From Cloeon dipterum (Eukaryota > Arthropoda > Insecta > Ephemeroptera > Baetidae): a stretch of 64,000 nt of DNA. Made by a program: the position numbers and the translations under genes. Of this stretch, positions 13,375-38,384 are shown piece after piece; position 1 is the first letter of the stretch; each line of letters opens with the position of its first letter. Where the stretch lies: assembly GCF_949628265.1 (NCBI RefSeq), contig NC_088786.1, positions 4,030,001-4,094,000 on the forward strand. The letters are read 5' to 3'. The notes under the pieces are model-generated. The model searched no databases and was not told where the DNA came from. It was given only the letters and a program-made list of their open reading frames with translations.

Positions 13375-13508
13375 CATATGACATCACCAACCCGATTTTT
13401 GGTCTCCACTTTATAGTAGAAGGAAGGGGGACACGCTATATATATTTATACCCCGTGCGAATTTAAAATTTTACTTTTCAAGTAACAAGCATCTTGAGCT
13501 AATCAACA
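13375..13508 (+). promoter_or_regulatory. SPH core promoter module (A copy)
   Basis: CATATGACATCACCAAC at 13375 contains TGACATCA, a CRE-like word. It is followed by GGAAGGGGGACAC and a TATA region at 13437-13450, about 72 bp before the ATG. The same blocks in the same order precede SPH-B, C, D and E. The A copy is the most diverged and has a slightly longer TATA to ATG gap. Confidence 0.7.
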
Positions 13509-15406
13509 ATGAGCTGCTTGCAATGGCTGCTCTGTTTTGCGCTTCTCGCACAAGTTTGTGCTATGGTGAGTAGCTAAAGTCCATACTTAAATGTATGGTG
13601 GATCTCCACTGTTGTTGGTATCACATTATATGTGAGCAAACCCCTTTTTTAGACAAGTGTTGTTGCCGTTTCAGTAAATTTTTAACAGAATTTTGAGCCT
13701 TTCCAAAGCAAAAAATATTATTTTCAATTTCAATTCGTTTTTATTTCCTTAAATAAGTCCAACATTTTATAAAGAAAATCACATTCAAAATTCAAAGACA
13801 AGCTTATTTTAGATCCTTATTTGAAATTAAATGCTTGTTACATCCCTGACTCATTAAGAATTATTTAATCAATTCGATTTAATTCTCATTTCTTTATTCT
13901 ACTGATTAGAAATATTTACTAGTGGGATTTTGAAATACCCAGAGGTTTTCAAAAAATTATTTTATTCCAATTTCCGTAGGGAAAACATTTTGGAATAAGC
14001 GGGAAAATCGAATTGGTGGAACACTCTGCCGAGGAAATTAAGGAATTGTCCGCGAAAGAACAGTTCAAAGACACTAAGTGTGAGTAATTAAGCAGATAGA
14101 ATTAGAATGCTATTGACAGAAAAAAATCGATAGCACCAGATGACGGAACCGATTCTGAGGATGAATTTTCTTTCAACGAAGCTGAAACACAACGCTTTCT
14201 GGAAGAGGTATTGCGCGACGACAATGGTAAATTGAACAATAATTGAATGATTGATTTTAACCCAATGAATTCTAGACTCGGACAGAGATACTGAATTGAA
14301 GACGAGAGCTGCTAGCAAAAGTAAGATATCGTGTTCGGATGGAAACCAAAACCGTGTACACGATGAGCTGAGGTCAAACTTGAATGATACGGAACAACCC
14401 ACGAGAATATTGGGAGGACTTGATGTGCTTGCGGGGGTAAATGTGCTGTTCACTTACAACGTCTTAGTGGAAGGCCTTACTATCCTCGGCACGCAAAATA
14501 AGTACTGCGGAGGTGCTATTTTATCGAAATTATGGATTCTCACAGCCGCCCAGTGCGTTGTAGGGTGAGTATTTTTTTAAATTTTATACCCTTCCATCAT
14601 GCAAACACAATTCATAGGTTTGCCCCTATACAAGTGTATGCTGGCTCAACAAATGATCCTATAGGAAACGGAATCGTCCCAATAGCTGGAACCCCTTACG
14701 TTCACCCCAATTTCGTTCTAAATACTTTGCTTAATGATATCGCGCTGATAAAGTTGGTTAAACCCCTCACACTTGGAGGTATACATAATTATGCTAATGG
14801 TGATAACCAATATTGATTGAACTCGCATGTTTTGTGGTTGCAGCAACAATAAGTACAATCCGTATTTCGACTGTTCCTATCCATGCTTTACTTGGAATTA
14901 GTCTTCGAACCTATGGATGGGGACCTGCAGACGATAGTAAGCCACATTATTTACCTCATAAAATATATAACTGTTGAAACCTGCATTCGATTCCTGGGAC
15001 TTATATTTTTGCTTCATTTTTAGCCACAGCATTACCAGCACCACCTAACTTGAATTTTGTCGACATGTACAATTTTAAAAAAATTGAGTGCCTCCAGAAA
15101 TTACTAGGATCGTATTTGGTTTTCCAACCAAATACTGGATGTTTGAGCTCTTCAGAGGCAACGAAAGGCATTTGCTTTGTAAGTTGATGCTACGCAAAAT
15201 TTAATTTATTAATTATTTGCCGATTTCATTATTAGGCTGACGCTGGTGGACCTGTCACTTACATCGATCAAATAGGTGACTCAGAGAGAATTGTCGGGGT
15301 CAATTCTTACAGCTTTGGCTGCCCCACTCTATATCCGAGCTCGTACACAGTTGTACTACCCTATTTGGGCTGGATCAGAAGTACTACAAGGCTGATAGTC
15401 ACATAA
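13509..15406 (+). CDS. SPH-A: secreted serine protease homologue, catalytically dead
   Basis: Exons: 13509-13565, 13980-14079, 14134-14226, 14276-14564, 14618-14778, 14844-14936, 15024-15178, 15236-15406, giving 372 residues. Exon 1 is a signal peptide ending LLAQVCAM. Exons 2 to 4 give an acidic propeptide with one Cys (KISCSDG) and an N-D-T glycosylation sequon, then the activation site PTR|ILGG. The S1 domain follows: YCGGAILS, TAAQC (His57 to Gln), NDIALIKL (Asp102 kept), YGWGP, then CFADAGGP (Ser195 to Ala, Gly193 to Ala, Asp194 kept), and FGCP. Position 189 is Gly, so the trypsin specificity pocket is lost. Clip domains are absent. The product should be secreted, cleavable and proteolytically inactive. 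Its closest relative is SPH-D. Related non-catalytic homologues in arthropods act as cofactors in haemolymph cascades; a role here is not shown by the sequence. AATAAA follows at about 15433. Confidence 0.9.
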
Positions 15407-15439
15407 ATTAATGTGAACTGTTAGAGTAAAAAATAAAAT

Positions 15440-17225
15440 AAATAAAAAACATTTACAAATAACAATTAATATGTATTTGATTTTTAATAGTAACAATAAA
15501 AATCTGAATTTTAAATGAAATTGTTTTATTTAACAGGTCCTGTAAAATAACTTATGGTTGTAACGTATTATTGAATTTATTTGACTTTTGGCGTTCAGAA
15601 TTTTTTTAATTAAACTGATAAATACGCCTATAATCATATTTACATTTGTTGTGTCACTCTTTGGCCTGTTACTGACCTAAGAGGCGCCATGACCAGGCGC
15701 CAGTATCGACAATCAATAGCACCGTATAATTTACATAATTGGCATTTCTATTGAAAGCGTAAGACGAGCACTGTTTAACTTACACGTGGTTTTCGCGCCC
15801 TCAGCGCACGATTTGTTTGAACCAACCACTGACTGACGAGTACAACCGGCAGCCAGATGCACCCTCTCCCCCGAGTTACCGAGGAGGCTGCATGATTTGG
15901 GCTTTCCTCTGTGATGGTTTTCCGACCTCTGCCGAGCAACAACTAGCGTACGCGCCAGCCAGACACAGTAAGCATTTTGTCAAAGTCTCGTCTGCGTTTT
16001 AATAATTAACGTAACAGTAAATATAGCCAATATCGCGATTGAAAGCCTTTTGATAATTGTGAAAGTCACTTACGTTTCAATAAATCCCAACATTAATCAT
16101 TGTTACAAAGTTAAACCGCAGTATATAATTTATATTTTTCATTTGATAAATACAGAGAATTCAAAGAAAATAACGTAATTAATAAAAGGGAGATTAATTA
16201 TTCAATCAGTTTGCAATTTTCGTAGTTTGCTAATTTTTGGAGAAACTGAACTATTTATTAGAGTTCAGAGGTTGCTGAAAATATTTAGTCGTGCGCTCTT
16301 GCCAGGCCAGCAAGGGGCAGATTTTATTCTGAGGATTTCTGACTTCTCACAGGCAGTGAGGCAATTAATATTTCTAAAGTCTCATAATTATTCCGACTCG
16401 CTGCCGCACATGAGCAGCCGAGTTGGTAATAATTATGACCGATTGTTGGCATTATTATTTAGCCGAGTTGAATAATATATGTATTTCAGTGGATCACAGT
16501 TTAAGGAGAGTGACTTTATTGTTGGAAGCATAATTAAAGAGAGCAAAGATAATACTTAGCTAGGCAGAATTAGTAATATCGAGGAAGAGGCTTTTGAGAA
16601 TGGCTTGGACCAGCAGCAGATAGAGAGAATAAATAGTGAGAGATCGGCGGCGGCGGAGGCGGAGGTCTGCTCGGTACGTCAGACAGTTTTCCCAGCTCTC
16701 CGTAAGTTACAGGGAACAACCAGGTATGTATAACATTTTTCGTGGTGTTACAGAGAAGGTCACCACAACAATGATCCTGCGAAGTCTTGAATTTATAAGT
16801 CTCATTAGAGCTATTTTAAGTAAATAAACCCTACTTGGTATTGCTGACAACGAGACTAAAACCCGACTGGCCAGCAACATATTAAATAAAGCCTGACATT
16901 TCAACCCTGCAGTTTATTTCTCACCTATAATACATTCATAAAAAGACATCCACTAATGATAATTCAAATTTATAGATTTCACCAAGGGAAATAAATCACC
17001 GTGAAATGAATAGAGAATTTGGAATCAAGTAAGAGCACTAATTGAAAATGCACAACTTCGCTGGCGCGAACTTATATACTTTAATAAGGAGCGGAATAAT
17101 AGGTTAATTTTTCCGATCGAAATCAAGCGATAGGGAGATAAATTTAAAGTTTTGTCCAGTCTTGGGAGTTATATTCGGGTATACATGTACGATATGATGA
17201 TTAAGGTAATAATGAGGCTGCAGCA
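15440..17225. other. SPH-A to SPH-B spacer, partly duplicated between D and E
   Basis: No gene. The ends of this spacer match the D-E spacer. For example, the stretch with AAATAAACCCTA, GACTGGCCAGCAA and TAAATAAAGCCTGAC (16825-16905) recurs at 29163-29240. The middle 1.1 kb has no counterpart there and is the LTR-like insertion listed separately. The small open frames within it are not supported. Confidence 0.7.
15647..16767. mobile_element. solo-LTR-like fossil insertion, family unassigned
   Basis: A 1.12 kb block starting TGTTGTG and ending CACCACA (TG...CA ends, near-inverted), flanked by ACATT and ACAAT as a near-perfect 5-bp duplication. The paralogous spacer between SPH-D and SPH-E lacks it and reads TTTTACAATGATCTTG across the junction, a clear empty site. 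No capsid or polymerase frames are seen, so only the terminal repeat appears to remain. It entered after the A-B/D-E block duplication, or was lost cleanly from the other copy. Orientation is uncertain. A large non-autonomous DNA element is the alternative. Confidence 0.5.
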
Positions 17226-17229
17226 AATT

Positions 17230-17354
17230 CATATGACATCACCAACCTGGCTGTATCCACCTCTCCATTACAGAAGGTAGGGGGACACTATTTATATCCC
17301 GCGCGAATTCATAATTGCATTAGTCAAGTAGCGAGCATCTTGAGCAAATCCGCA
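17230..17354 (+). promoter_or_regulatory. SPH core promoter module (B copy)
   Basis: CATATGACATCACCAACC at 17230, AGAAGGTAGGGGGACAC, then TATTTATA at 17289-17296, 66 bp before the ATG. An initiator-like GCATTAGTC lies about 31 bp after the TATA start. It differs from the C copy at only about one position over roughly 125 bp. Confidence 0.75.
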
Positions 17355-19427
17355 ATGAGCTCCTTGCAATGGCTGCTCTGTTTAGCACTCCTCGCACAGT
17401 GTGCTAGGGTGAGTAACACATATTTTCCATAATAACTTTTTAAAGATGATCTCCGATATTTTTAAATAAATTACATAATTTTAGTTTTGCTTCAATCAGA
17501 AAGGATATAACACACGTGAAGAGTTATAGAAGTATGTGGATATAAGCATCGTTTTAATATTGATATTTTTCGTAAATAAATTATGTTTAGTCTTTATTGC
17601 TTTGCAATTTTCAACTTTGAGGGAACGCCTAAAATTGTCTTAAAAATAGCCTCTTGAAACAAGATTTTTTTTATCTTATTGCTGTTAGTGTTTAGTAAAA
17701 CTAAATGTAATCTGTCTGTGATAGTAAATACAACAAATAAATATATAATATAGCCAATTGTAAAAACGATAAAAATTATTACTAAAGAGCAGAGCAGCAA
17801 CTCTGAGTACCTATTTAATTGAGTATGGACAGTAAAATATTCATTTGAATACCCACTTTATTTTGTAAATTCTCAAACTTGTGGTCAAGTGAAATACACT
17901 GCTTTAAAAGTGTTTAAAATAAATGGAAATCGAAAAATTGCTATCGTATAAATGTTATCAATTATTACACTCAAATTTCCCAGGCAAAAAACTATGGAAT
18001 ACGAGGAACTATCGAATTGGTGGATTACTCTGGCAAGGAATTATTGGAATTTGCTGCAAAAGAACAGCGTGAGTAATTAAGCATGTAGAATTATAATGCT
18101 AGACAGAAAGGAATTCCGCAGCACCGGAAGACGATACCGATTTGGAGGATGATTTTTCTTACAACGAAGCTGAAACCCAACGATTTCTGGAAGAGGTATT
18201 GCGCGACGATAATGGTAAATTGATCAATGTAATTAATTGATTGATTTTCACGGAAATATCTATTCAATGAATTCTAGACTCGGATGCAGATACCGAATTG
18301 AAGAGTGGCACTGCTAGCAAAAATGAGATATCGTGTACGGCTGGAAATCTAGCCCGAGTAAACGAAGAGCAGAGATCAAATTCGAATTATACGCAACGAC
18401 GCGCAAGAATATTGGGTGGAACTGATGTGAATGGTGGGGTAAATGTGCTGTTCACTTACAACGTCTTAGTGGTAGGCGCTCCTATCCTCGGCACGCAAAA
18501 TAAGTTCTGCGGAGGTGCTATTTTATCGAAATTCTGGGTGCTTACTGCCGCCCAGTGCGTCGTAGGGTGAGTAATTTTTTAAATTTTATTCCTATTAATC
18601 ATGCAAGCACTGTTCATAGGGTCGCTCCTATTACCGTAATTGCTGGCGCATCAACTGATCCTCAGGTAACTGGACTCCCCGCAATCCCTGCTACCCCTTA
18701 CGTTCACCCCGATTTCGTTCTAAATACTTTGAAAAATGATATTGCGCTACTTAAGCTGATTAAACCCCTAGCATTTGGAGGTAAGTTTATGCCTATGATG
18801 ATTTCCCACATGATTTTCAATCGCATTTTCTGTGGTTTCAGCGGCGGTTAGTTCAATCTTACTTTCGACCATCAGTGTGGCTACCTTAAGTGGAGTTGAT
18901 TTAAGGACCTTTGGATGGGGACCTGAAGACGATTGTAAGCCATATTAACCTCATAATATATTTTATTGTTGGGAAATACGTTTAACTGCAATCTGTTGAG
19001 ACTCGCTCTCAATTCCTGTGACTAATTTTTTGTGTCATTTTCAGCCCAAGCATTACCAGCAACTCCTCCCTTGAATTTTGTCGACGTGAGAGTTGTGCCT
19101 AAAGCCACGTGCCAAACACAAACACAAGAAACGTACGTGACGTACCCAGGAAACACTGGGTGTTTGAGCACCGCCTCCGCAACCGAAGGCTTTTGTTTTG
19201 TAAGAGGACATTAACCAAAATTTAAAAAATTGATAATAATGATTGCCTTGTTTTAGGCTGATGCTGGTGGACCTGTCGTTTACATCGATGACGTAGCTGG
19301 AACTGAGAAAATTGTTGGTATTAATTCATACAATTTGCCCTGTCCCAGCCTCTATCCAAGTTCATTCACTCTCGTGTCACCTTACTTGAAATGGATCAAG
19401 TTAACGACAAAGCTGGCATTCACATAA
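17355..19427 (+). CDS. SPH-B: secreted serine protease homologue, catalytically dead
   Basis: Exons: 17355-17408, 17984-18068, 18122-18214, 18278-18566, 18620-18780, 18842-18934, 19045-19199, 19257-19427, giving 366 residues. The signal peptide MSSLQWLLCLALLAQCAR is identical in SPH-C and SPH-E. The acidic propeptide includes EAETQRFLEEVLRDDNG, a lone Cys (EISCTAG) and an N-Y-T sequon eight residues before the cut. The activation site RRAR|ILGG also fits a furin-type R-x-x-R. The S1 domain has FCGGAILS, TAAQC in place of TAAHC, NDIALLKL, FGWGP, and CFADAGGP in place of GDSGGP. Cys42, 58, 168, 182, 191 and 220 can all be assigned. SPH-E is the block-duplication partner and matches in exons 6 to 8 and in flanks. 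AATAAA at 19467. Expected to be secreted and inactive as a protease. Confidence 0.9.
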
Positions 19428-19474
19428 TTTAAACATAATGTTTTAGGTTTACAAACTGATTTTGTAAATAAAAA

Positions 19475-21590: not shown

Positions 21591-21594
21591 AATT

Positions 21595-21719
21595 CATATG
21601 ACATCACCAACCTGGCTGTATCCACCTCTCCATTACAGAAGGTAGGGGGACACTATTTATATCCCGCGCGAATTCTTAATTGCATTAGTCAAGTAGCGAG
21701 CATCTTGAGCAAATCCGCA
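21595..21719 (+). promoter_or_regulatory. SPH core promoter module (C copy)
   Basis: CATATGACATCACCAACC at 21595, the AGAAGGTAGGGGGACAC block, and TATTTATA at 21654-21661, 66 bp before the ATG. Nearly identical to the B copy although the coding regions of B and C have diverged strongly. Confidence 0.75.
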
Positions 21720-24301
21720 ATGAGCTCCTTGCAATGGCTGCTCTGTTTAGCACTCCTCGCACAGTGTGCTAGGGTGAGTAACACATATATTTAATTTCTT
21801 TATAAATAATCTCAACGATATTTTTGACAGCAAATCTCATTAGAATGTTTTTGTCATATTTATTTGTGATCAAAACCTTTAAATGAAACATTTCAAATAG
21901 AGAAGAAACTTTTCAAATTCCTTTCTTGAACTAAGAAATAAAACAGTTTTTCAAAGTTTTTCCTGAATGACATCAACCATAAGCGCAACAAATAATAATA
22001 ATATTATTAGTACTCGTACCAAAAGATGTGAAAAAATTACGCAGCGTTTTTTTAACTGCTAGTTTGAACAACTAAGTTAAATTCTTGTTAAGGTGCACAC
22101 ATTTTTACTTATAAATTTTAATTCAAGGCTCAAATATTATACAGTGGAATTAACTTGAAATTATTAGAAGCGTTTAATACAGTGCTTTGAAGTCTTGAAC
22201 CACCCCCAAAACCGCTGAACCATCCAACCAAACTTTCGAAAACGCCAAAATACTTTGATTGTTTTTTTTTACTGAGATCCTTAATATAACGAAATACATG
22301 GACAATAATGATATAAAAAAACTTTTGTAAAATCTTTATCCTGTATGTAAGTTAATAAAATAGCCTTGATTGCACTTCAAGTCAGATGTAAATACATATT
22401 TAACTATTTTTATCTAGAAATGAGTAACCACAAAATAAATTTTATTTTGCCAGTATATAGATTGAAGAGATTTGTAAAACCCAATTTATTTGAAATATTG
22501 ACTTTTAGATGCTTAAATGGCATTCGATTTATGAATATCTCTTGGATTGAACTTACAGAATTCCAGCCATAATTTGATGTTAAAGTGAGTTTAAGTAGTT
22601 TCATTTGATTTGTTTCTAAATATAAGACAAAAAAGGTATGTTACGCGCAAAATTAATAGTGAGTAAAAATATAAATAAATGTTTTTTGAAAATTTTTCCT
22701 TTCTTGTTCATCGCCCACAAATCGCAAACCGCACCCTCTTGGTTCGCTAAAAATTGACCACAATGCTGCAAAAACAAAAAGCACATGTATTTAAAAAAAT
22801 ATTTGCTTATGATCAAATTTCCTAGGCAAAACACTTGGGAAAAACCAGACCGATTGATGTGGCAGATTTCTCTGGCAAGTATGAGGCAAATAAAGAATTC
22901 GCTGAGGATGAACTGTTAAAAAGCACTACAATCTGTAAGTAATTTAGAAGATAATATATAGAATACAATACAAAATTGAAAGAAAATCCACAGCCCCTGT
23001 CGAATCTAAGCCTGCAGAAAATTTCTCTGTTAAGGGAGACAATACAAAATACACCCAGGCAGAACTACCGCAAGACCACCATGGTAAATGAATCAATGAT
23101 TAGTTTAATTTGACATTCATGACTGACAAAAAAATAGATTCAAGCACAGATACTGCATTAACTTCGGAAAAAATTAAAGGAGGGCCTGATAACAAGAATC
23201 AAGCCTATGAAATCGAGGATCTGAAGTCAGGCTTGAATGGTACACAACGGCGCTCGAGAATATTCGGAGGACAACTTGCTACTGTCACTTTCAACGTCTT
23301 AGTGGAAGGCACTGCTATCCTTGCCGCGACAAATAAGTTCTGCGGAGGTGCTATTTTATCAAAATTCTGGGTGCTCACTGCCGCCCAGTGCGTCGTAGGG
23401 TGAGTAATTTTTTAAAATTTATTCCTATTAATCATGCAAGCACAAATCATAGGTACGCGCCTATTACCGTGCATACTGGCGCAACAACTGATCCTCAGAC
23501 CGTAGGCCCCTCAATAGTTGCAACCCCCTACGTTCATCCCAATTTCGTACTCAATTATTTGTTGAATGACATCGCGCTGCTGAAGGTGATTACAGCCATC
23601 CCATTGGGAGGTGAGTCCATACGTTTGGTAATATCCCTAATGATTTTCATTCACATTTTTTTGTGATTTCAGCGGCGGCTAGTTCAATCCTACTTTCAAC
23701 TTCTACTGTCCACAGTTTGGGAACTATCGATTTAAGGGCCTATGGTTGGGGACCGGCAGACGACAGTAAGCCAATGCTATTAATATTAGTATTGACGAAT
23801 TTTACAATATTAAAAGTAGCGTGAGAACAAATGTTACCTTTTCGGTTGGACATCACGTTAATTTGCAATATCGTATTTAAAATTGCTGTTACTTAGATTG
23901 CTAATTCATTTTCAGCCGTGGCATTGCCAGCACCTGCTGACTTAATGTTTGTCGACTCGAGAAGTGTGAAAAGCACCACCGATTGCCCAAATCAATTATT
24001 AGGATCGTATGTGTCGTACCCACCAAACACTGGCTGTTTGAGCTCTGCCTCCGCAACGGAAGGCGTCTGTTATGTAAGTTGATACTAAACAAAATTTAAA
24101 TTTATTAACTATTGGCCATTGCATTGTTAGATTGATGCTGGTTCACCCGTCACTTACATCGATGACACAGCTGGAACTGAGAAAATTGTCGGCATAAATT
24201 CTTACAGCTTTGGCTGCCCCAGTCTCTATCCGAGCTCGTTCACTTTGGTGGCACCCTATGCTAAATGGATCAAGGCCACGACAAGGCTGACATTCACTTA
24301 A
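21720..24301 (+). CDS. SPH-C: secreted serine protease homologue, catalytically dead
   Basis: Exons: 21720-21773, 22826-22934, 22994-23083, 23138-23399, 23453-23610, 23673-23765, 23916-24073, 24131-24301, giving 364 residues. The signal peptide is identical to that of SPH-B and E. The propeptide has diverged: it lacks the EAETQ block and the lone Cys, but keeps an N-G-T sequon eight residues before the cut RRSR|IFGG. The S1 domain has FCGGAILS, TAAQC (His57 to Gln), NDIALLKV, YGWGP, and CYIDAGSP, so Ser195 is Ala, Gly193 is Ile and Gly197 is Ser. This is the most altered oxyanion region of the set. Asp102 and Asp194 remain. Intron 1 is about 1.05 kb, much longer than in the other copies. The middle of exon 4 onward is near identical to SPH-B in patches, including intron 4, which suggests conversion. 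Confidence 0.9.
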
Positions 24302-24309
24302 TATAATTT

Positions 24310-24720
24310 GAATATATGATAACACGAAATAGATACATGATGCGTTCTTGGTTTTTGGTAAAATAACAATAAAAAAACTGGAAATAACGCACTAAAATGT
24401 TTTATTAAAAATATCCTGCACCGCCAATAGTACAGTTTAGTTTATACAAAATGCTTGTCTTTTATTTTGTAGTTTTTCTAAGTCTCTAGATTGAAATAAA
24501 ACCAACTTAATATGTTTTAATCTCAATTCTGAAGCGCTTATCTAATTGGGCGATTTTATAACGCTATACTGTGAATAAAATGGTTCTGAAATTACTATTT
24601 TTTAATGGAATCAGTCGGTAAATATCCTACTTTACATATGCATCATTTGGCATTCCAAGATATTTGAGTATTTCAGGCATCTTTTATTAGCTGCTCAATG
24701 TCAGAGATGGCAAAAGGTAT
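24310..24720. repeat. left half of an interrupted repeat copy
   Basis: After SPH-C the DNA is non-coding. The segment ending GTCAGAGATGGCAAAAGGTAT (to 24720) matches the repeat at 12210 and 25707. It continues at 25276 after the fold-back element. This is a third copy of that repeat, split by the insertion. Confidence 0.6.
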
Positions 24721-25275
24721 TATGGGGATCGCCGTTCAGAGAAGGCAACCTGCAGGGCGGGTTTCTTTCGCTCCGCCCTCGTCGCTGCAGCAGGTATCAT
24801 ACACGCACTTACCCTGAGGCCGAGCAGCCACGAGTACATGAATTAATTCTCGGAGCGATCTCAAGATTCGAGGTAATTTTTATCAGCGTTATTAGTGCAG
24901 TACTTTTCTATTTGTTAAATGATTATTTATTATGTTTATTGAAAAATTGTCTTATTGTAATGAGTCAGGGCGCCTTGAGCGCGTGTGCTGAACATAAATG
25001 CGCCTTACCGCACGGCTTAACAGGAACTGGAAAATACAATAAGACAATTTCTCAATTATAATCATAATAAATTATCACTTAACAAATAGAAAGCGCTGCA
25101 ATAATAACGCTAGTAAAAATACCTATAATCTTGAGATCTCTCCGAGCATTAATTAAGTAACGCACTCGTGTCTGCTCGGCCGCTGCTGGGCATGTGAGTA
25201 CCCTGCTGCAGCGACGAGGGCGGAGCAAAAGAAACCCACCGTGCAGGTTGCCTACTCTGCCCGGCGGTCCCCATA
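24721..25275. mobile_element. fold-back / MITE-like DNA element with long inverted repeats
   Basis: 555 bp whose two halves are imperfect inverted repeats of about 245 bp around a spacer of about 65 bp. The ends are TATGGGGATCGCC and GGCGGTCCCCATA, and the element is bordered by GTAT on both sides as a 4-bp target duplication. Arms share landmarks such as GTTTCTTTCGCTCCGCCCTC (left) and its complement in the right arm. Removing the element and one GTAT restores the CAAAAGGTATGGTAAGAGACTC context, which aligns with the uninterrupted copies at 12217 and 25714. No transposase frame is present, so it is non-autonomous. The superfamily cannot be assigned from the ends alone. Confidence 0.75.
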
Positions 25276-25450
25276 GTATGGTAAGAGACTCAAAATGCTC
25301 AAAAAGCTCAACGGGCTGGGAGACTTTTAGATTTTTACTAAAATAAGTGCGAGCCAATTCCAATTTATTATGATATAAAGTTCACTCGCGAAAAATATGT
25401 CATCAACTAAAAGAAGCCTCCCATAAAAAAATAATATTAACTCGAAATAT

Positions 25451-25570
25451 TAAGGCACATTATTTGCTAGCGCTACTGACACTTTAAAGTTCTGCGGGGG
25501 TGCGATTCTGTCCGTGTCCTCGGTTGACACTACCGCCCAGTGCGTCGCAAAGTATGTTATTTTCTGCCTA
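25451..25570 (+). pseudogene. orphan exon relic of an SPH-F-type gene
   Basis: This segment matches the second half of SPH-F exon 4. It reads KFCGGAILSVSSVDTTAQC, against KFCGGAILSVSWVVTAAQC in SPH-F, then CVAK where SPH-F has CVAT. The invariant Trp is gone and no other exon lies nearby. DNA just upstream (AATATTAACTCGAAA) resembles DNA far upstream of SPH-F (33468), so the relic is a copy of an F-type gene that lost most of its body. It still shows the Gln in place of His57. Confidence 0.75.
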
Positions 25571-25621
25571 TTCACTTTGAAATTGTGTAAGTAATTTAGT
25601 GTGAAGAGAAAAATTATAAAT

Positions 25622-26715
25622 TAAAACCAGCTCCGTGGCATTCTCTGGAAATTTCAGGCAATGTGAGATATTGTAGCATTTTGGGGATCTATTTCACGCT
25701 GCCCTATTTCAGAGATGGCAAAAGGTGGTTAGTCCAAAAGCGACTCGAAATGCTCAAATAGCTGAACGGATTGGAAGGAGCCTGCCATTATCTGCTTTTC
25801 ATTCCTTTCCAGATACTTTGTGGACGAATTTTTGGCGCTTTAATAAAAGACCGCTTTGGTCCCTTATTATCCGTCCAGTGGTTTTATTAGGACCTTATAA
25901 GCTCCGCATATATTATTTCTAATTTTTTGTATATAGAATCACATAATAGTTCGCCACTGTTGCACCTGATTCCAGAATTTCTATTTGTTTCAGCCAAACG
26001 AATATTATTTCATTTATGTGGAGTGGTCCGAAACTTGAGAGGCTGCGCGCAGAGCTTATATTAAAATGAATCGCCTTATCTCTCCCTCGGGAAGCCGAAA
26101 CTGCTCCACTGGACACCGGCATATTTACGGGCACCGCTGCTTGGTTGCACGGTTTTCCTCCCTCTGCAAGACGTAAGATTTAAAAGAATGTGATTTTTTT
26201 GGTGATATTTCAAGTCTGCATGGTCTTTTTCCATCAATACAAAGTGTCAACTTGTACGCCAGAAGTGTCACCCTTCCTCACATAAAATAAAATCCGTATA
26301 TTACACAATCTGTCTTATTACACTTAATTTTTGCTGAGGGAAGAGAAATCACAGTCTTGCATTTTTGGAGGGCACCGACACACATTTTTAGTCCTCTGCG
26401 TCGAATAACATCTAGAACGAATTTCATGAGACAGCACAGGACTCAACGATGTCCAGTCCAATGTAAAATTTAGAAGTGCTGACGCCCCTCAGTGGTGTGA
26501 ATTTTATTGGTACGCAAATAAATTGCATATTAATTTGTGCAATCGAAATTCAATTCAATTTATTTGTCTTTCAGCATGGTAGTACATCTTTTCAGAACAT
26601 ACTCCATCTCATGGCGAAGCAAGGGAGCCAAACTTGGGCATTCGACCTCTTATAATACTTAAACTCTAAAATAGAAATAAAGCATCTATGCAATCCTTAA
26701 TAGTTTGAGCAAACT
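25622..26715. repeat. duplicated flank, downstream copy (pairs with 12115-13290)
   Basis: Matches the DNA upstream of SPH-A along most of its length, with small indels, including the GACGAATTTTTGGCGC repeat block and the GGAAGCCGAAACTGCTCCAC block. It contains short AT-rich additions, such as a TTCAATTCAATTTATT run at 26549, not seen in the other copy. No gene. Confidence 0.75.
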
Positions 26716-26796
26716 AACTAACCTAATATGTATTAAGGAAATACATATTATGCAAATGGATACTGATAATGAGAATATAAAGCTGCATAGTAATAC

Positions 26797-26923
26797 CATA
26801 TGACATCACCAACTCGATTTTTGGCCTCCGCGTGTGGCAGAAGGAAGGGGGGCACTATATTTATACGCCGCGCGAATTCTTAATTTTATTATTCAAGTAA
26901 CAAGCATCTTGAGAAAATCCACA
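26797..26923 (+). promoter_or_regulatory. SPH core promoter module (D copy)
   Basis: CATATGACATCACCAACTC at 26797, the AGAAGGAAGGGGGGCAC block, and TATATTTATA at 26856-26865, 68 bp before the ATG. Most like the A copy, in keeping with the A-D pairing. Confidence 0.7.
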
Positions 26924-28877
26924 ATGAGCCCCTTGCAATGGCTGCTATGTTTTGCGCTTCTCGCACAAGTTTGTGCTATGGTGAGTAGCTAAAGTACTTT
27001 AATTAATGGTGGATCTCCACTGTTGTTGGTATCACAATAAATGAAAAGTGTTGTTATCATTTCAGTAAATTTAAAATAGAATTTTGAGCCTTTCCAAGGT
27101 ACTAAATATTAATTAAATTCAAAGAAAAGCTAATTTTATATCATTATTTGGAATTAAATGATTTTTACATCCCTGACTCATTCAAAATTTATACTATTCA
27201 ATTCAATTCACAATTTTTTACTTTACTACAGTAAAAATGTTAACATGCGTAATTTTGAAATACCCAGAAAAGTTTTCAAAAAATTAATTTTGTTCTCTAG
27301 AAATTATTGCTAATTTTTGTGGTGTTCGAACAACAAATTTAAATTTTAAGCGACAATGTCATTAGTTTGTAAATATTAATAATAGATACTATACTTTAAC
27401 TGTCAACGTCAACATTTTGCAGAGAGTATACATTATGAAAAAGTGTATAGTCAGTACTCACAAAATACAAATGTATTGAAATTTTACACTCCAATTTCCT
27501 CAGGGAAAAAATTTCGGAATAAGCGGAAAACTCAAATTGGTGGACACTAAGTGTGAGTAATTAAGCAGGTTGAATTATAATGCTAGACAGAAAGGAATTC
27601 CGCAGCACCAGATGAAGAAAGAGATTCTGAGGCTAATTTTTCTTACAACGAAACTGAAACACAACCCTTTCTGAAAGAGGTATTGCGCAACCAGAATGGT
27701 AAATTGAACAGTAATTGAATGATTGATTCTAACGTCTAATCAATCAATTAATTAATTACAGACTCGGACAAAGATACTGGCATGGCTAGCAAAAATGAAA
27801 AACCGAGCTCGGATGGAAATCAAGCCCGTGTAAACGTGGAGCCGAGGTCAAATTTGAATTACACGCAACGACGCGCGAGATTATTGGGAGGAACTGACGT
27901 TGCTTTGGGGATAAATGTGCAGTTCTTTTACAACGTCTTAGTGGAAGGCGTTTCTATCCTCGGCACGCAAAATAAGTACTGCGGAGGTGCAATTTTATCG
28001 AAATCCTGGGTGCTCACTGCCGCCCAGTGCGTCGTAGGGTGAATAATTTTCTATAATTCCGTTCCCATTTATCATGTAGGCATATTTCACAGGGTGGACC
28101 CTGTAAGGGTGTATGCTGGCTCAGCAATTGATCCTCTGAACACAGTCACCCCAATAGATGCCGTCTTTAGGTACCCTCACGAGAAATTCGTTCGCAATAC
28201 TTTGCTTAATGATATCGCGCTGATAAAGTTGGTTAAACCCCTCGCACTTGGAGGTATTCATATCATGGATATTATGCTAATGATGATGGATTAAACTCGC
28301 TTTATTCTTGGTTGCAGGAACGATTAGTACAATCCGTCTTTCGACTGTTTCTATCCATACTTTAGGCGGTGTTAGTTTTCGAACCTATGGATGGGGACCT
28401 CCAGACGATTGTAAGCCATATTTACCTCATAAAATATATAACTGTTGAAACCTGCATTACATTCCTGTGACACAGATTTTCATTTCATTTTAGCCACTAC
28501 ATTACCAGTACCACCTATCTTGAAATTTATCAAGATGAAAAATTTAAAAAAAATCTGACTGCCTTGAGATATTACAAGACTCATTTTTGGTTTACCCACC
28601 ATCTGCTGGATGTTTGAGCACTTCGGAGGCAACGAAAGGCATTTGCTTTGTAAGTTGATACTACGCAAAATTCAATTTATTAATTATTTGCCGATTGCAT
28701 TATTAGGCTGACGCTGGTGGACCTGTCACTTACATTGATGAAATAGAGGACTCAGAGAGAGTCGTCGGTATCAATTCTTACAGCTTGGACTGCCCCAGTC
28801 TATATCCGGGCTCGTACACAATTGTACTACCCTATCTAAAATGGATCAAGAAAACGACAAGGCTGACATTCACATAA
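26924..28877 (+). CDS. SPH-D: serine protease homologue with a frame-breaking A-run in exon 7
   Basis: Exons: 26924-26980, 27504-27552, 27606-27698, 27762-28038, 28093-28253, 28318-28410, 28494-28649, 28707-28877. The signal peptide differs from SPH-A at residue 3 only. Exon 2 is 51 bp shorter than in SPH-A, an in-frame loss bounded by a short CACT repeat. The cut site is RRAR|LLGG with the N-Y-T sequon eight residues before it; the lone propeptide Cys is gone. TAAQC, NDIALIKL, YGWGP and ADAGGP are as in SPH-A. Exon 7 is 156 bp, against 155 in A, B and E. An A8 run (about 28545-28552) holds one extra A, after which the frame ends at once; dropping one A gives the expected DCLEILQDSF and SAGCLSTSEATKGICF. 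This is a recent pseudogene, a polymorphism or an assembly error. Without the shift it would give about 351 residues. The intron 4 donor is GTGAAT. Confidence 0.85.
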
Positions 28878-28899
28878 ATTAATGTGAATTGTTAATGTA

Positions 28900-29890: not shown

Positions 29891-29897
29891 GCGAATT

Positions 29898-30022
29898 CAA
29901 ATGACATCACCAACTACGCTGTAACCACCTCCCCATCACAAAAGGTAGGGGGACACTATTTATAACAAGCGCGAATTCTTAATTGCATTAGTCAAGTAGC
30001 GAGCATCTTGAGCAAATCCGCA
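29898..30022 (+). promoter_or_regulatory. SPH core promoter module (E copy)
   Basis: CAAATGACATCACCAAC at 29898 (CATATG changed to CAAATG), the AAAGGTAGGGGGACAC block and TATTTATA at 29957-29964, 66 bp before the ATG. The leader GAGCATCTTGAGCAAATCC is identical to that of B and C. Confidence 0.75.
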
Positions 30023-32190
30023 ATGAGCTCCTTGCAATGGCTGCTCTGTTTAGCACTCCTCGCACAGTGTGCTAGGGTGAGTAATAATTATTTTACTTAA
30101 CGTCTATTTAAAGATTATCTCCATTATTTTTTTAAAAATTACTTAATTTTATTTTTGCTTCAAACAGAAATGTTTTGTCACATGATGTGAAGAGTAAGAT
30201 GTACATGGATCTAAGCACCAGTTCCATTTTGTTTTTAAATTTTAATGTTTTTCGTAGATAAATTCTATTTAGTTTTTCCTTTGCGAATTTTTACTTTCAG
30301 AAAACGCCTAAAAAGTCTTCAAAAATATGCCTCCTTAAACAAGATTTTTGTAAGCGCATTGCTGTCAGTGTTCAGTACTGATATAAATTGTAATCTACCT
30401 TCAAGGTTTTAAATTAAAGAATAAAAATATATATTAAAGTTAATTGCAAAAAGTTTTAATTTTTAATTTTAAAACATTGAGCATGGCAAATCTGTTTGGA
30501 TTTTTAATATCAGAGTAAATGAGCAGAAAATATTTGTTTGAATAACCACACGCTATATTAAAATATCGCACACTTGTGGTTAATTAAGTGATTTGCACAG
30601 CCTTAAAATCATTTGAAATAAATAGAAATCGAAAAATTACTCATGTCTACATGTTATCAATTATTAATTTCTTATTTCCAAGGCAAAAAGCTATGGAATA
30701 AGAGGAACAATTGAATTGGTGAACCACTCTGGCAAGGAAATTGTGGAATTTGCTGCGGAAGAACAGTTCAAAGACACAAAGTGTGAGTAATTAAGCAGGT
30801 AGAATTGTTATGCTAAACAGAAATTCCTTAGCACCTGACGACAATACTGATTCTAAGGATGATTTTTCTTACAACGAAGCTGAAACACAACACTTTCTGG
30901 CTGAGGCATTGCGAGACCACAATGGTAAAAATTTATCACTTGATTAATTGATTGGAAATATCTAATTATTGAATGAATTATAGTCTTGGATACAGAATTG
31001 AAGAGAGGCACTGCTAGCAAAAATGAGATATCGTGTTCGAGTGGAAATGAAACCATTGTAAACCAGGAGCCGAGGTCAAACTTGAATTATACGCAACAAC
31101 TCGAGAGGATATTGGGAGGAACTGATGTGGCTGATGGGGTAAACGTGCTGTTCACTTACAACGTCTTAGTGGAAGGCCTTTCTATCTTTGGCACGATAAA
31201 TAAGTACTGCGGAGGTGCTATTTTATCGAAATTCTGGGTGCTCACTGCCGCCCAGTGCGTCGTAGGGTGAGTAATGTTTTAAATAATATTCCTAGAAATT
31301 AATCATGCAAGCACAATTCACAGGGTGGCCCCTGTAAAAGTGTATGCTGGCTCAGCAAATAATCCTATAGGAGGAGTCGACGCAATAATTGCAACCCCTT
31401 ACATTCACCCTGATTATATTTTAAATACTTTGAAAAATGATATTGCTCTACTTAGGCTGATTAAACCCCTAGCACTTGGAGGTAAGTTTATGCCTATGAT
31501 GATTTCCCACATGATTTTCTTTCTCGTTTTCTCTGGTTTCAGCGAAGATTAGTACAATCTCACTTGCGTCTATTAGTGTCAATACCCTAAGTGGAGTTGA
31601 ATTAAGGACCTATGGATGGGGACCTGAAGATGACTGTAGGTCATAATTACCTTTGAAAAATATTTTATTATTCTTGTTTATTCTTGCAGTAGTCAATACA
31701 ATAAATACATTGAATAGAAATATTGTTTGGAAAAAATACAATTGCAATCTGTTGAGACTAGCTCTCAATTCCTGTGTGTATAATCTTTGTATGTCATTTT
31801 CAGCCACAGTATTACCAGATCCACTTATCTTGCATTATGTCGACTTGAAAAATGTACTTAAAACCACGTGCCAAACACTAACACAAGAAACTTACGTGAC
31901 GTACCCGGGAAACACTGGGTGCTTGAGCACCTCCTTTGCAACGCATGGAATCTGCCATGTACGTTGACACTAATCAAAATTTAAAACAATATTAATGATT
32001 GCTGATTTCCTTGTTTTAGGCTGATGCTGGTGGACCTGTCACTTACATCGATGAAATAGCTGAAACAGAAAAAGTTATTGGTATTGATTCTTACCACTTT
32101 GACTGTCCCAGTCTCTATCCAAGCGCCTTCACTCTTGTGCTGCCCTACTTGAATTGGATCAAGCTAACGACGAAGCTGACATTCACATAA
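30023..32190 (+). CDS. SPH-E: secreted serine protease homologue, catalytically dead
   Basis: Exons: 30023-30076, 30683-30782, 30832-30924, 30984-31266, 31324-31481, 31543-31635, 31804-31958, 32020-32190, giving 368 residues. Signal peptide as in SPH-B. The propeptide has EAETQHFLAEALRDHNG, a lone Cys (EISCSSG) and an N-Y-T sequon eight residues before QLER|ILGG, so the furin-type motif of B, C and D is absent here. The S1 domain has YCGGAILS, TAAQC, NDIALLRL, YGWGP, and CHADAGGP: Ser195 to Ala, Gly193 to Ala, and His at position 192. Partner of SPH-B by block duplication, sharing exon 5 KNDIALL, exon 6 TLSGV and exon 7 ATC/TTC-QT-TQETYVTYPGNTG. The intron 6 donor is GTAGGT. The exon set is intact. 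Confidence 0.9.
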
Positions 32191-32219
32191 TTTAGATATC
32201 ATATTTGAGGTTTGCAAAC

Positions 32220-32978
32220 TGATTGTAATTAAAACAAACCAATAATTAATTAAAATACAATAATTTTTTTCATCATTTTTGTTCAAATAAATATCGAAAA
32301 CAACATGAATTAAATTATTTTTATCAAAACCCCCCAACGGCTTCTTAGTATTTTAATTTTGACCATGAAATTTCCTGTCATTTTGAAGATGAATGGTCAA
32401 TTAGGGAATTTAAAAAAATATTTTGAGCTCAGTTGATAAAATAGTAAAAGTGTAAATTTTATAAGTCAAGTTCTTATGTCATTTGAACGAATGTATCGCA
32501 ATTTTAGCTCTGCTATTCTTATGCAGAATACAATGAAAATTAGAATTAGTTAATTTTTTAATAATATGGCAAAGTAAATTTTTGGAAAGCCCTGTACAAA
32601 CTGGCTGCAGGGATACTGTTCAAGCCGTCCAAGCTATAATTTCATAGAAACCTCCAATAGTTTGTGTTCACACCTTCCAGTGACTTTATAGACGAATGTC
32701 TGGCGTTCCAATAAAAGACATCGATTGAGGAAGGCGTAAATATAGCCAGCAATATTTGGCCCCAGCTTATTGGCGGGTGAAGGTAAAATATAATTCAATT
32801 TGTGCCATGAATTAGGGCAGCAGTCCAGCTGGAACAATAGTAGGCTAAATAAAATAAAACTTAATATTAAGTGTTTCATTCTTCTTTTATGAATATAAAT
32901 AGCACTTTCCACAGGTTGCCCCCACAGAAGAGACTAAGGGTGCCTCTTAGCTTTCAATTATTGGAGTCGATAGCCCCA
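32220..32978. other. SPH-E downstream DNA, shared with SPH-B
   Basis: 32220-32650 matches the DNA after SPH-B. 32680-32740 holds another copy of the dispersed GACGAAT..CCAATAAAAGA repeat. A 92-codon minus-strand frame at 32634-32912 has no domain or splice support and overlaps the repeat, so I leave it out. Confidence 0.6.
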
Positions 32979-32979
32979 G

Positions 32980-33395
32980 GTTCACGCCGCTGAGACCGCG
33001 TTCGCCCTGAGCGTCGCCTCCATCGCCACTGGCCGCGACTTGCATGCACCACGAGGTATATCATTATTAATGTTAAGCAGAGTAATTCTATTCAATTAAC
33101 CAATTCTAGCATTAAAAATATTTTATATCTGCACGACGCCGGACATTTCTTCATAGGCAAAGGGCTCCTTTACCACTATCAAGAAGTTCTACTTCGCTAT
33201 CGGACACACGCAGTTGCTCTTTTCAGGCCTGCAATTGAAGCGTACTATAGGAGTACAATTAAAGGGCTTCGATGTGCTCTGTCTTTACAGAAGCGCTCGG
33301 TGCGGCAGAGTCCTAACGCTGCTAACAAAAAAAAAAGAACACAGAATCCAGCACATTTTGAAGAGCCGACTGTGGAGTTCATTGAACTGAATTAA
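32980..33395 (+). other. unrecognised coding-like segment, two putative exons
   Basis: A GC-rich block (32980-33055) opens after CCCCAG and ends at a GTATAT donor in phase 1. It reads VHAAETAFALSVASIATGRD and onward, and the other two frames contain stops. A second block (33157-33395) opens after TTCATAG in phase 1 and stays open for about 78 codons to TAA. A second frame is also open across that block, so the choice is uncertain. I know no family with this sequence. There is no clear start upstream, where an in-frame TAG precedes the acceptor. It may be a relic of a gene or transposon in the array spacer. Confidence 0.3.
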
Positions 33396-33737
33396 AAGGA
33401 TATTTGTAACGTGTACTACTTTTTTATGAGTTCTTTATAGTTAAATATACATTTCAGGGATGCTGGCATTAAAAGAAAAATAGTATTAACTCGAAAGATT
33501 GAAAAAAAAACAAATAGAATTAACTCCGTGGGTCCAGAAACAATTTTTCATTATTTTTTACTGTTAATTTTTTTCCAAATTGTTTTATACGAACTTGGAT
33601 GTTGGTGCTGCGGCACACGTAATAAAATCCCGCGGTTAGCATCCACCACTCCGTTCAAGAAATACGTGGGTAGTGGGTCATAACATTGCGGCGCGATTAT
33701 CTTATTCAATCAGTCCGTTGTGTGAGCGTCTGGCAAA

Positions 33738-35620
33738 ATGTGTTCCTCTCAGTATATTGTGTGTTTAGTGCTTCTCGTCCCTGTGTGCACAAGAGTGAGA
33801 CTTACTGGTTTAAAATCTTTTAATTTTAGTCCCAGCATTTGCATTAAATTATGCTATTGCAGGAATTTAAATTCTTTGCACTGCATTAACATCTTCCCTC
33901 TCTACTAGTAAGAATTTTGATAGATCGTGAGGATTTTTCCTAATTGAATCATTTCTTTAGTAATTCTTGACAGAAGCCAGTAAAAACAAATATTTTTTTA
34001 TTGAGTCTACAAAAGTTCTACTTATCAGTGTCCGCCGTAATTTAAATATTGATATTGATTGCAAAGGTAAAAGATCGGTGCAAATTACCAGACCTTTGTA
34101 TTAAATGTATTATTTTGGCGTTATGTTAAATATGATCGACCTTCTTTTAAGAATTAATCATATTAACACGCAATAATTCATAGGCAAAAAATTTGGCAAT
34201 CACCGAAACAACTGAGTTGATGGACTACTCTGGCAGAGATGGAGTAGAAAAAGAATACAACTTAAAAGATGAAAATTGTAAGTATAATTTCAATCAGCTA
34301 ATTACATAATCTGAACCAAGAATAATTTAACAGCAACGAAGATAGATGTTAACACATCTGAGTTTGCGGATACAAAATACTCTTTAGAAGAATTATTGAA
34401 AGACGACAATGGTAACTCTATTTCACACACTTGATTCGTATCTGTAAAGTTACAAACTATTAAATACAGACACAGATATCGAGAGTCTACTGACCGCAGA
34501 GATGAATGAAAGCTTTTCTGAAAGCACAAATGGAGAATCTGTAATAATAAGCGCAAAACCAACCACTGCAAACCCTGGCTTCAATGGTACGGTACGAAGC
34601 GGAAAAATTTTGGGAGGAACGGCTGTAACAGCAGGACAGAACAGTTATAACGTCTTTGTGGAAGGCACAACTGCAAGCGCTACTGGCACTTCAAAGTTTT
34701 GCGGGGGTGCGATTCTGTCCGTGTCCTGGGTTGTCACTGCCGCCCAGTGCGTCGCAACGTAAGTTATTTTATTCGCAATTGTGGGAGTGCAATATGAATA
34801 CGACTCAAAAGGGCGGCGACCATTATCGTGTACTCTGGCGTGCTGGAAGATCCCGTGGGAACAGGCACCAAGACAAGTGCCCTCCCCTACATTCATCCAG
34901 GTTTCAAACGCAATTTTTTGCTGAATGATATCGCGCTGCTAAGGCTGCTCACACCTCTCGCAATTTCTTGTAAGTGTCTATATAATGACTGTCCACAATA
35001 TTCCATTTTTATAATATGAGCTTCTAGCAACGACTGGAGTTATCCGAATTCATAGCTCCAGCATCTCTGGGTTTGATAATGTTGCGGCTAGGACTTTTGG
35101 ATATGGTCCTTCAGATGACTGTAAGCTCCATTTCTCTATTTTTTTTTTTCAAAATATTATTGATTTTATTTCAAAATGTTCATTTTTTATTGAAAGAAAA
35201 ATACTGAATAATCTTATCCTCCTAATTTCAGCTCAAGCTTTAGCATCGACAGCGACAGATATTGTCTTGAAATTTGTTGACCTAAATATTGTAAAAAAAG
35301 CCTCATGCATATCACAAACAGATGAAACATATGTGGCTTACCCAGGGAATACTGGATGTTTAAGCACCTCTTTGGCAACAAAAGGAATTTGCTTTGTAAG
35401 ATTTTTCGCATGCAAATTTTGTAGATCTCAATGACAATTTCTTTCCCAGGCTGACGCTGGCGGACCCGTCGTTTACACAACTGATGCAGATGGCACAGAT
35501 AAACTAATTGGAATCAATTCTCTATATTTGGGCTGCCCCTCTTCATATCCAAGCTCTTTCACTCTGATTCATCCCTTCATTGGATGGATCAAATCCATAA
35601 CTAAAAAGACATTTACTTAA
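33738..35620 (+). CDS. SPH-F: secreted serine protease homologue, catalytically dead, diverged copy
   Basis: Exons: 33738-33794, 34184-34277, 34334-34411, 34470-34758, 34812-34969, 35028-35120, 35232-35395, 35450-35620, giving 367 residues. It keeps the same intron phases as A-E. The signal peptide starts MCSSQYIVCL. Exon 3 carries KYSLEELLKDDNG, the unit amplified in the gene at 9308. An N-G-T sequon lies eight residues before the cut RSGK|ILGG, so P1 is Lys. The S1 domain has FCGGAILS, TAAQC, NDIALLRL, then FGYGP where the others have GWGP, and CFADAGGP. The A-E promoter module is not recognisable upstream; the ATG follows GCGTCTGGCAAA. The orphan exon at 25451 derives from an F-type gene. 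AATAAA at about 35705. Role unknown beyond a predicted secreted pseudoprotease. Confidence 0.88.
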
Positions 35621-35649
35621 ATGATTGAATTGAGCTCAAAAATGCTTAT

Positions 35650-36570
35650 CTATATTTAATTTTTTTATTATAATTTAGATCATTTATGAGCTTTCCAAAT
35701 TTCATAAATAAAAATTGTTTTCCATGATCAGATCCGAGATATTTAATTAATGATATTTATTGGTCCAGGCACCATTCCATCAATCACCGCTTGAAGGGCA
35801 AGATTGGAATGTATTTGCTTCAATTTCACGTTCATAATTAATTTTATTCAAAATATGTTAAAAATGATTAAAGGCTAAATAGTTTTATTTTTGCTGATTT
35901 ATTTCTATGTTGATTAAGTAGTTGCAAAAAAAGTAAAGCAAAAATGAAATTTTAAAGTATCGAATTTCTAAGTTCTGCGTGAATAAATTCAGGATGGACA
36001 GCTTTACGTTAAATTTTGAAAGAAAAAATTAAATATAACACTCTTTTACTGCATATTCCGCAGGCCTTATCAGCAAAATTCATGGCATAAAAATAAAAAT
36101 GTTTTAGTTGTAACATCTATAAATGCTTTTTAGAATAAAATATATTGAAAGAGAATTATTTAAAACAATTTTATAATGCTACACTGTATAGCATAGTAAA
36201 ATTATTTAAAAAAAATTTGCAATAATTATATAAATAATACAATTTATTTACCTAATCGGATTGGTGGCTGAAGTGCACAAGTCCATCTACCTGAACCCTA
36301 TATTTAGAGATGTTCCCGTTATCATTATTGTATTATTTTTAGTTGTGGAGAGGAACAAGTTTTATTTTTAAAAGCCTGACAGGCCATCTGGACAAATAAT
36401 CCCAAAATTTATTGCTCACAAAAAAACGACGCTCTCTGACAGAGGGCACTGATCTGCCTAGAGGATAAGCGACCGCGAAACAAACTTCGAGTTTCATCGA
36501 TTGCAGAAAAAAAAAGATGTTCTATCCTGCGGCTCTTGTTCAGAGTCGTGAGCTGCTTCAAGTGTGTTTC
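35650..36570. other. SPH-F to SPH-G spacer
   Basis: Very AT-rich, no gene, no strong repeat. No copy of the SPH promoter module is seen before SPH-G. Confidence 0.65.
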
Positions 36571-36579
36571 TCGTGCAGC

Positions 36580-38384
36580 ATGCCTCCCTGCCTCGTACAA
36601 ACATCTTTCCTCATTGCAAGCCTCTTCATTGGTTGCGCAGCCGAGAATAAAATGGTCAGTAAATTTAGTGAAGCGATTCTTTTACAAATAAATCCTCTCG
36701 TTTGAAAATTTTGACAGTCGTTATCGATTTGCATGGTAAAGAGTCAGTATGCAAACTGTAGAATGAAAAAATAGCCGTTTCCTTCAGCTATGAAAGGAAA
36801 GCTGTCCAATTTTTTACTTCATTTTTTAAGCACGCATAAGAAAAAATACCGTTTTGAATTCTAATTCGAGATATTCATTAAACTCCTTAAATTGGCTATT
36901 TTTGCAAACCTGTTTCTACGATTCTAGCGAAGAGTAGCATGAATTTAAATTTTAATTGATATTTAAATTTTTGCTGCCGTCAGACTCGGGTATGCTAAAA
37001 TTGCTAAACCAAATTCACCAATTAAAAATAGTTTTAAAGTATTTTTTGAAGTCAAAAAATAATGATAATAATTATAATGAATTTGGGTTGCCTCATTTTT
37101 GCAGCGCTTGCCAACTATAACGGGGTTGCCAATTACCTGACTTAATGATTTTTAGGCCATACGCAAATCAAATCCAATAAAATTTTGGCAGTAAAAGCTA
37201 CCAATATTTTTCGTATTTTTTGTAATCCATAATTTAAAGCAGGTTACGTCCAATTCATCTTTACTGCCGCACTCGGCTCGAATTCTGGGAGGCACGACAG
37301 ATATCCTTGGTCAATTTCCTTTCTTGGTTTACATTGAATCATTGCTGAGAGACTTCGTCTCCACACAGTCCTGCGGGGGAGTGATTCTGAACGCGAATCA
37401 CGTCTTGACAGCAGCCCAATGTGTAGTATTGTAAATTATATTTTCAATATATAACCTTTTCTAGATGTTTAACTGACAGAATTTCCAATTTAGAGCGGCA
37501 TCCATAAAGATCGTTTCCGGGGTTATGGACCCTAAAGATGCAGCGGCCCAAATTTCAGTTGGTCGAGCGATTATTCACCCAAAGTACAGAAGGAATCTAC
37601 AAATACATGATGTTGCTATCGTCCGGCTGCTCCACCCAGTATTCCTTAGTACAGGTGAATCAAATTAACAGTCAATTAAAAATAAACAAAGTATTTTTTT
37701 AAACAAAATACAAAATAATCTTCTTGCTATGCTATATTAAGGGCATGCCCGTCAAATCAATTCGATATTTGATCCAATTTTTAAAACTCACTCTGATGCA
37801 AAGTAAATAAAAGCATGCACTCAGATTATGCTGAATATTAATTTAGCATTTCCAATTTTAATTAGGGCCTGTACGCTCTGTCAGGATATTGAAGAGAACA
37901 ACAGCAAAATTGGACAACTTAATTTTGACTACCGCTGGTTGGGGCCCAGCTGACGGGAGCACCACGATTCACACCACCGTTCGATCCGTGAATTTGATGC
38001 AACTACCTAAAAATATCTGCAATCAGCTAACGGCTCAGACATATATTGCGTATCCCGCAATGACTTCATGTTTAGACACCAAAGATGGCACCAAGGGATT
38101 TTGCTATGTGAGATTTTCATTTAGAAATATAAACTGCTATTTTCTGATCGCCGAGGATTAAACATTTTAAAAACAAAATAGATTTTAACTAAAATCCTTT
38201 TTCATTTTTGTTTTAGGGTGACGCTGGTGGTCCGGTAATGTATCATTTCCCTACAGAAGGCCAACCTACGTTGGTTGGAATTCTAAGCCAATATCAACAG
38301 TGCCCCGATTCTCTCCCGATGAGCTACACAAGGATTGGGCATTACTACTCATGGATTAAAAAGACAGTAAAATATCTGGATTAG
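36580..38384 (+). CDS. SPH-G: minimal serine protease homologue, no long propeptide
   Basis: Exons: 36580-36654, 37243-37430, 37494-37654, 37866-38107, 38217-38384, giving 277 residues. Exon 1 is a signal peptide (hydrophobic SFLIASLFIGCAA) ending phase 0. It joins directly to an exon that reaches the cut site HSAR|ILGG after 15 residues, so the acidic propeptide exons are absent. Here exons 6 and 7 are one exon, and the intron present in A-F is missing. SCGGVILN, TAAQC, HDVAIVRL, AGWGP and CYGDAGGP show the same His57 to Gln and Ser195 to Ala, but Gly193 is kept. An N-S-S sequon sits ten residues before the cut. An in-frame ATG at 36517 could add 21 residues, but the later ATG gives the better signal peptide. 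This is the most distant member and may resemble the ancestral form. A weak GTCAGT donor follows exon 1. Confidence 0.8.

Follow-up and report, generated by a model that had tools for sequence, protein, structure and literature searches.

Can a protein that does nothing but bind retain zymogen cleavage as its switch? This question is posed by seven S1-family genes lying head to tail on the + strand at positions 13509-38384 of the 64,000-nucleotide stretch of Cloeon dipterum DNA analyzed here (the window). The job of most insect serine protease homologues (SPHs) is not known, and an array combining the same double loss of catalytic residues with kept activation machinery provides a compact test case.

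An unspliced six-frame motif scan identified TAAQC in 7/7 copies (at 14542, 18544, 23377, 28016, 31244, 34736, and 37408), DAGGP in six copies, and DAGSP in copy C, all on the + strand between 14.5 and 38.2 kb. This matches what the original prediction had claimed for every copy, the diverged G included. The same scan gave neither TAAHC nor DSGGP anywhere in the window. Gene models were predicted from the DNA alone by spliced alignment of copy A to each region with GT/AG introns; their outer limits are the start codon of A at 13509 and the stop codon of G, which ends at 38384. Open frames were obtained for A, B, C, E, F, and G. The earlier count of seven genes thus holds for the copies located, but D is frameshifted, leaving six intact, and an orphan F-like exon had been overlooked. 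A-F comprise eight exons, with intron phases (0,1,1,2,1,1,0) identical in A, B, C, E, and F, and the intact copies among them encode proteins of 364-372 amino acids; G has five exons (phases 0,2,1,0). For exon 3 of SPH-B, two starts five codons apart come into question (the model uses 18107, whereas 18122 would leave an intron of typical length); the choice affects the propeptide only. Exon 1 of SPH-G with its GTCAGT donor was picked by eye. The features of the array are as follows.

13509..15406, + strand: SPH-A, eight exons (13509-13565, 13980-14079, 14134-14226, 14276-14564, 14618-14778, 14844-14936, 15024-15178, 15236-15403; stop 15404-15406)
17355..19427, + strand: SPH-B, eight exons
21720..24301, + strand: SPH-C, eight exons; Ile193, DAGSP
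25465..25563, + strand: orphan F-like exon 4, a relic with TTAQC, between C and D
26924..28877, + strand: SPH-D, frameshifted; exons 1-6 open, exon 7 (28494-28649) shifted, TGA at 28556-28558
30023..32190, + strand: SPH-E, eight exons
33738..35620, + strand: SPH-F, eight exons; Lys at P1
36580..38384, + strand: SPH-G, diverged; five exons (36580-36654, 37243-37430, 37494-37654, 37866-38107, 38217-38384 including the stop); short propeptide, Gly193 kept

The mature domains of A, B, C, E, and F share 49-73% identity with each other (62 and 63% for B and E versus A) and 32-40% with G. Pfam scans of four of the seven copies gave matches to the Trypsin family (PF00089) far above the cut-off (E-values of 5.7e-27 for A, 4.9e-22 for C, 1.3e-26 for F, and 1.7e-26 for G), values that rule out a chance match; no other Pfam family reached its cut-off in these four. 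With residue numbers assigned by motif anchors, Gln57, Asp102, Asp194, and Ala195 are encoded in 7/7 copies. The predicted replacement of His57 by Gln and of Ser195 by Ala in all seven was thereby recovered, though DAGGP with Ala195 lies downstream of the stop codon in D. A protein counts as an SPH when at least one of His57, Asp102, and Ser195 is replaced; here two are, and Asp102 is retained. Residue 189 is Gly in 6/6 intact copies, and residue 193 is Ala in A, B, D, E, and F, Ile in C, and Gly in G, in line with the Gly189 and the A-F-wide replacement of Gly193 described earlier. Likewise, the Ile16-type N-terminus (Ile in six copies, Leu in D), both aspartates, and the six cysteines of the mature domain (6/6 intact copies) are retained as had been proposed. 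As the base (H57Q), the nucleophile (S195A), and in A-F also the oxyanion residue (G193A/I) are gone, the array proteins are predicted to be non-catalytic. Since G still has Gly193, the changes to Gln57 and Ala195 appear to have preceded the loss of Gly193, in a comparison that contains no outgroup.

The first exon is hydrophobic in all seven copies and was judged by eye to encode a putative secretion signal, for which a length of 19 residues (21 in G) was assumed. It is followed in A-F by a propeptide of about 90-110 residues. In A, B, C, E, and F, this segment has 103-108 residues (about 102 in B if exon 3 begins later) and is acidic (pI 4.2-5.6); in D, it has 87 residues and is near neutral, and in G, it is as short as 17 residues. 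The P1 residue of the activation site is basic in 7/7 copies (Arg in six, Lys in F). A-F carry an N-x-T sequon with Asn at P8 and Thr at P6, the middle residue of which varies (D, Y, G, Y, Y, and G, respectively); G has NSS at P10 in its place. Taken with the fold, these features indicate that the array probably represents a locally duplicated family of secreted, zymogen-like, non-catalytic S1A SPHs.

Cleavage between propeptide and protease-like domain is known for the non-catalytic clip-domain SPHs (CLIPA group, PPAF-II, Manduca SPH1/2). These need cleavage to function, according to the available part of PMC6901238, which makes a cleavage step plausible here without proving it. Their precedent raises the alternative that the array proteins are immune cofactors, cleaved during infection and steering prophenoloxidase or complement-like reactions. 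However, a clip domain was not found in the array: the propeptide contains one cysteine in A, B, and E and none in C, D, F, and G, so that no intact copy (0-1 cysteine in 6/6) has a cysteine-rich propeptide, and no clip family appeared in the Pfam scan of A, C, F, and G. A weak C-type lectin match nearby (41352-41600, - strand, E 0.0089) might be added in favor of an immune role, but it lies below the Pfam cut-off, and nearness on a contig is weak evidence. We consider an immune cofactor function unlikely.

Further along the window, exons of V-ATPase subunit H (PF03224; 46074-47656, - strand) and of a CCDC85-family gene (PF10226; 49245-50967, + strand) were identified, and on the strand opposite to the latter, pfkB-kinase exons (53139-54363, - strand). 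An open frame at 51193-51678 (- strand), which we take to resemble the end of a non-LTR reverse transcriptase, had no Pfam match, and a weak SAM-domain match (58718-59047, - strand, E 0.00025) fell just below the cut-off. ARAGORN found no tRNA and Rfam matching no family in the window.

The products of the array are best described as secreted, non-catalytic binders, a role that appears likely, and maturation triggered by cleavage is probable. The pro-form would be secreted and glycosylated, and a trypsin-like protease would cut it at the Arg/Lys bond before Ile or Leu. The new N-terminus would then insert against Asp194 and complete the mature fold, which would work by binding. A comparable combination is known from the protease-like domains of HGF and MSP, in which His57 is replaced by Gln, Ser195 is lost, and maturation is driven by cleavage. 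The array resembles these domains in Gln57 and the loss of Ser195, and differs in having no kringle domains, Trypsin being the only family at the Pfam cut-off in 4/4 copies scanned.

Selection was analyzed with custom maximum-likelihood codon code, the M0 likelihoods of which equaled those of IQ-TREE (-3520.21 and -4044.52). G was left out of the A-F sets, and D of the G-containing sets and the separate-tree test; gap-flanking codons were removed in the gap-filtered and separate-tree tests, where 199-200 codons remained. An omega of 0.659 was obtained for the mature domains of A-F (242 codons) as well as for their propeptides (97 codons), and 0.515 for A, B, C, E, F, and G (240 codons); omega = 1 was rejected in each case (2dlnL of 19.1, 6.1, and 52.1, respectively). 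The dN/dS test of relaxed decay named in the original prediction has thus been run, and with omega below 1, neutral decay of the whole array is ruled out. The two-class model M1a fitted the A-F mature domains far better than M0 (lnL -3465.75 versus -3520.21), which rules out uniform conservation. Strongly constrained mature sites (omega 0.11-0.13) made up 43% in A-F (omega 0.11) and 49% with G included, and more than half of the A-F mature sites fell into the omega = 1 class. Constraint across the array is patchy, with about half of the mature sites strongly constrained.

The constrained class comprised residues 16, 18, 19, 57, 102, 189, 194, and 195 and the six cysteines with probabilities of 0.97-1.00 (0.99-1.00 for residues 16, 18, 19, and 194), and the Asp194 codon showed synonymous variation only. 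Residues 193 (0.25), 215 (0.08), and 216 (0.16) lay outside this class. The neutral probability of retention in all six intact copies was 0.017 for Ala195, 0.008 for an Asp such as 102, and 0.11 for Gln57; conservation of Gln57 alone is therefore not significant, and shared descent could suffice. It had been claimed that a cleavage-triggered shape change is still selected while catalysis is not. The loss of catalysis, as judged from the encoded residues, and the retention of the maturation parts (a basic P1 in 7/7 copies and constraint on residues 16, 18, 19, and 194) agree with this claim, but selection on the shape change itself is something we infer.

The opposite reading is that of a decaying cluster, in which repeated duplication of a long-inactive protease gene yields copies that drift and retain little function. 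Copy D fits this reading. Its exon 7 has 156 nt, compared with 155 in A, B, and E or 158 in C and F, and the resulting +1 frameshift creates the TGA at 28556-28558. D is either a pseudogene or the product of a base error in the assembly, the latter being possible because the shift adjoins a run of eight A. The orphan exon beside D (25465-25563), 91% identical to exon 4 of F over 99 nt, is a further relic of the family as judged by this match. Pairwise NG86 dN/dS values for the mature domain were 0.24-0.86 in the 16 computable of 21 pairs, the other five, all with G, being saturated; the A-D pair was near neutral (0.86 for the mature domain, 1.03 for signal plus propeptide). Since D is also broken, part of the array appears to be decaying. 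In the closest pairs, exon and intron divergence were nearly equal (0.193 versus 0.210 for A-D, 0.204 versus 0.209 for B-E), and the large omega = 1 class of A-F points in the same direction. Against decay of the array as such, omega = 1 was rejected, the reading frame is open and the splice sites are conserved in six of the seven copies, residues 16, 102, 194, and 195 and the cysteines are constrained, and exons 4-8 evolved more slowly than introns 4-7 in 8/8 pairs compared. A cluster with little function left is accordingly improbable, and a family of zymogen-like, non-catalytic SPHs under patchy constraint remains the preferred reading.

Two repeats were observed in this part of the window. 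An inverted repeat near the orphan exon (24718-25278) has 77-nt arms that are 90% complementary and 407 nt apart. A direct repeat of 620 bp (94.7% identical), located left of A (12174-12791) and between C and D (25676-26292), is perhaps a mobile element.

Some mature sites appear to have evolved faster than neutral. M2a was superior to M1a for the pooled A-F mature sites (2dlnL 20.6), and after gap-flanking columns had been dropped, three tests on each of four gene sets gave p values of 0.0006-0.015 for sites with omega > 1. No positive selection was detected in the A-F propeptide (2dlnL 0.5). Exons 4-5 and exons 6-8 favor different trees (by 8.1 and 20.2 lnL, respectively), a conflict that speaks for unequal exchange or gene conversion. 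When each exon group was given its own tree, the omega > 1 signal stayed in exons 4-5 (p = 2.7e-4) and was absent in exons 6-8 (p = 0.25). B, C, and E do not differ in exon 1, a sign that gene conversion may have acted at the 5' end. A-E have in common an upstream block that includes ATGACATCACCAAC and TATTTATA (about 13380-13508 in A, with matching sites before B, C, D, and E); by eye, F and G, both left out of the alignment, show no such block. Diversifying selection at a few sites in exons 4-5 is therefore a tentative suggestion, with gene conversion as a confounder.

Fast, possibly diversifying evolution would also be expected of reproductive proteins, here male-gland SPHs evolving rapidly by conflict. 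Nilaparvata lugens expresses the SPHs trypsin 28 and 31 in the male reproductive system and nowhere else (PMC4085338, in the portion available); however, the array most similar to ours in that study is midgut-only, and a reproductive role seems quite improbable. The tentative diversifying signal would equally suit secreted anti-host decoys of the kind formed by scabies mite inactivated protease paralogues (SMIPPs), if the species lived as a parasite or fed on blood or plants. The SMIPP-S, likened here by description, are likewise a multigene family of inactive S1 proteins, and SMIPPs bind complement proteins according to the accessible text of PMC5427104. Among the 497 PDB sequences matched, however, Der p 3 was not the top hit, and we regard a decoy function as highly improbable. 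For the preferred non-catalytic binders, the signal permits a more specific, speculative scenario to which we give little credence as a whole: an S1 protease lineage would have turned into a cleavage-switched binding module, losing catalysis first at Gln57/Ala195 (G and A-F) and later through G193A/I (A-F) while keeping the maturation parts and the P8 glycan site, after which exposed positions in the first half of the domain would have diverged between copies to form a repertoire for ligand recognition. Concrete positions for tests are provided by the P8 sequon and by the retained Gln57 and Ala195.

Comparison with other sequences places the array among known kinds. Pattern searches of viral contigs (12 matches) revealed no relative, and those of genome contigs (26 matches, two of them bacterial S1 proteins with 28% identity) were uninformative. 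The array-wide double loss had been considered unusual, a view contradicted by the open-access literature. Tenebrio molitor has 125 SPHs, with His57 kept in 42 and lost in 83, and Ser195 kept in 24 and replaced in 101 (PMC11172050, excerpted). From these losses we derive that at least 59 of them are without both residues. Trypsin 23-27 of Nilaparvata lugens are five genes arrayed in one orientation on a single scaffold, all scored inactive and midgut-only, with signal peptides and 5-7 exons (PMC4085338, same portion). Bombyx mori has 92 SPH genes with tandem family expansions (PMC2996933, in part). Double loss and tandem array are therefore known kinds, though the number of putative digestive SPHs in Rhyzopertha dominica, no more than two (PMC8956072, in part), speaks against a general rule. 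The combination of array-wide Gln57-Asp102-Ala195, Gly193 loss, acidic propeptide, and P8 sequon was not found in the open-access literature, in searches that were not aimed at this combination as such.

By likeness to the Nilaparvata array and the Tenebrio SPHs, the gut is a possible, though rather doubtful, setting, where the mature fold could bind dietary protease inhibitors or substrates or aid digestive proteases. In the excerpted text of PMC11172050, 102 Tenebrio SPHs are without regulatory domains, and most of these are expressed in feeding stages. The Tenebrio SPHs resemble the mayfly proteins in their S1 fold, mostly present signal peptide, presumed trypsin processing, many duplicates, and mostly anionic character; Ser195 is mostly replaced, and Gln is the commonest substitute for His57 (55 SPHs; printed as H195Q, evidently H57Q). 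Unlike them, the mayfly array keeps one Gln-Asp-Ala state throughout, Ala195 being rare in Tenebrio (residues seen 1-4 times), has a propeptide of about 90-110 residues with the P8 sequon, and has lost Gly193 in A-F. The Nilaparvata proteins, likened by description, are shorter (260-300 amino acids) than the intact A-F copies. Compared with these systems, the array is ordinary but informative, and some of its conserved details are unusual.
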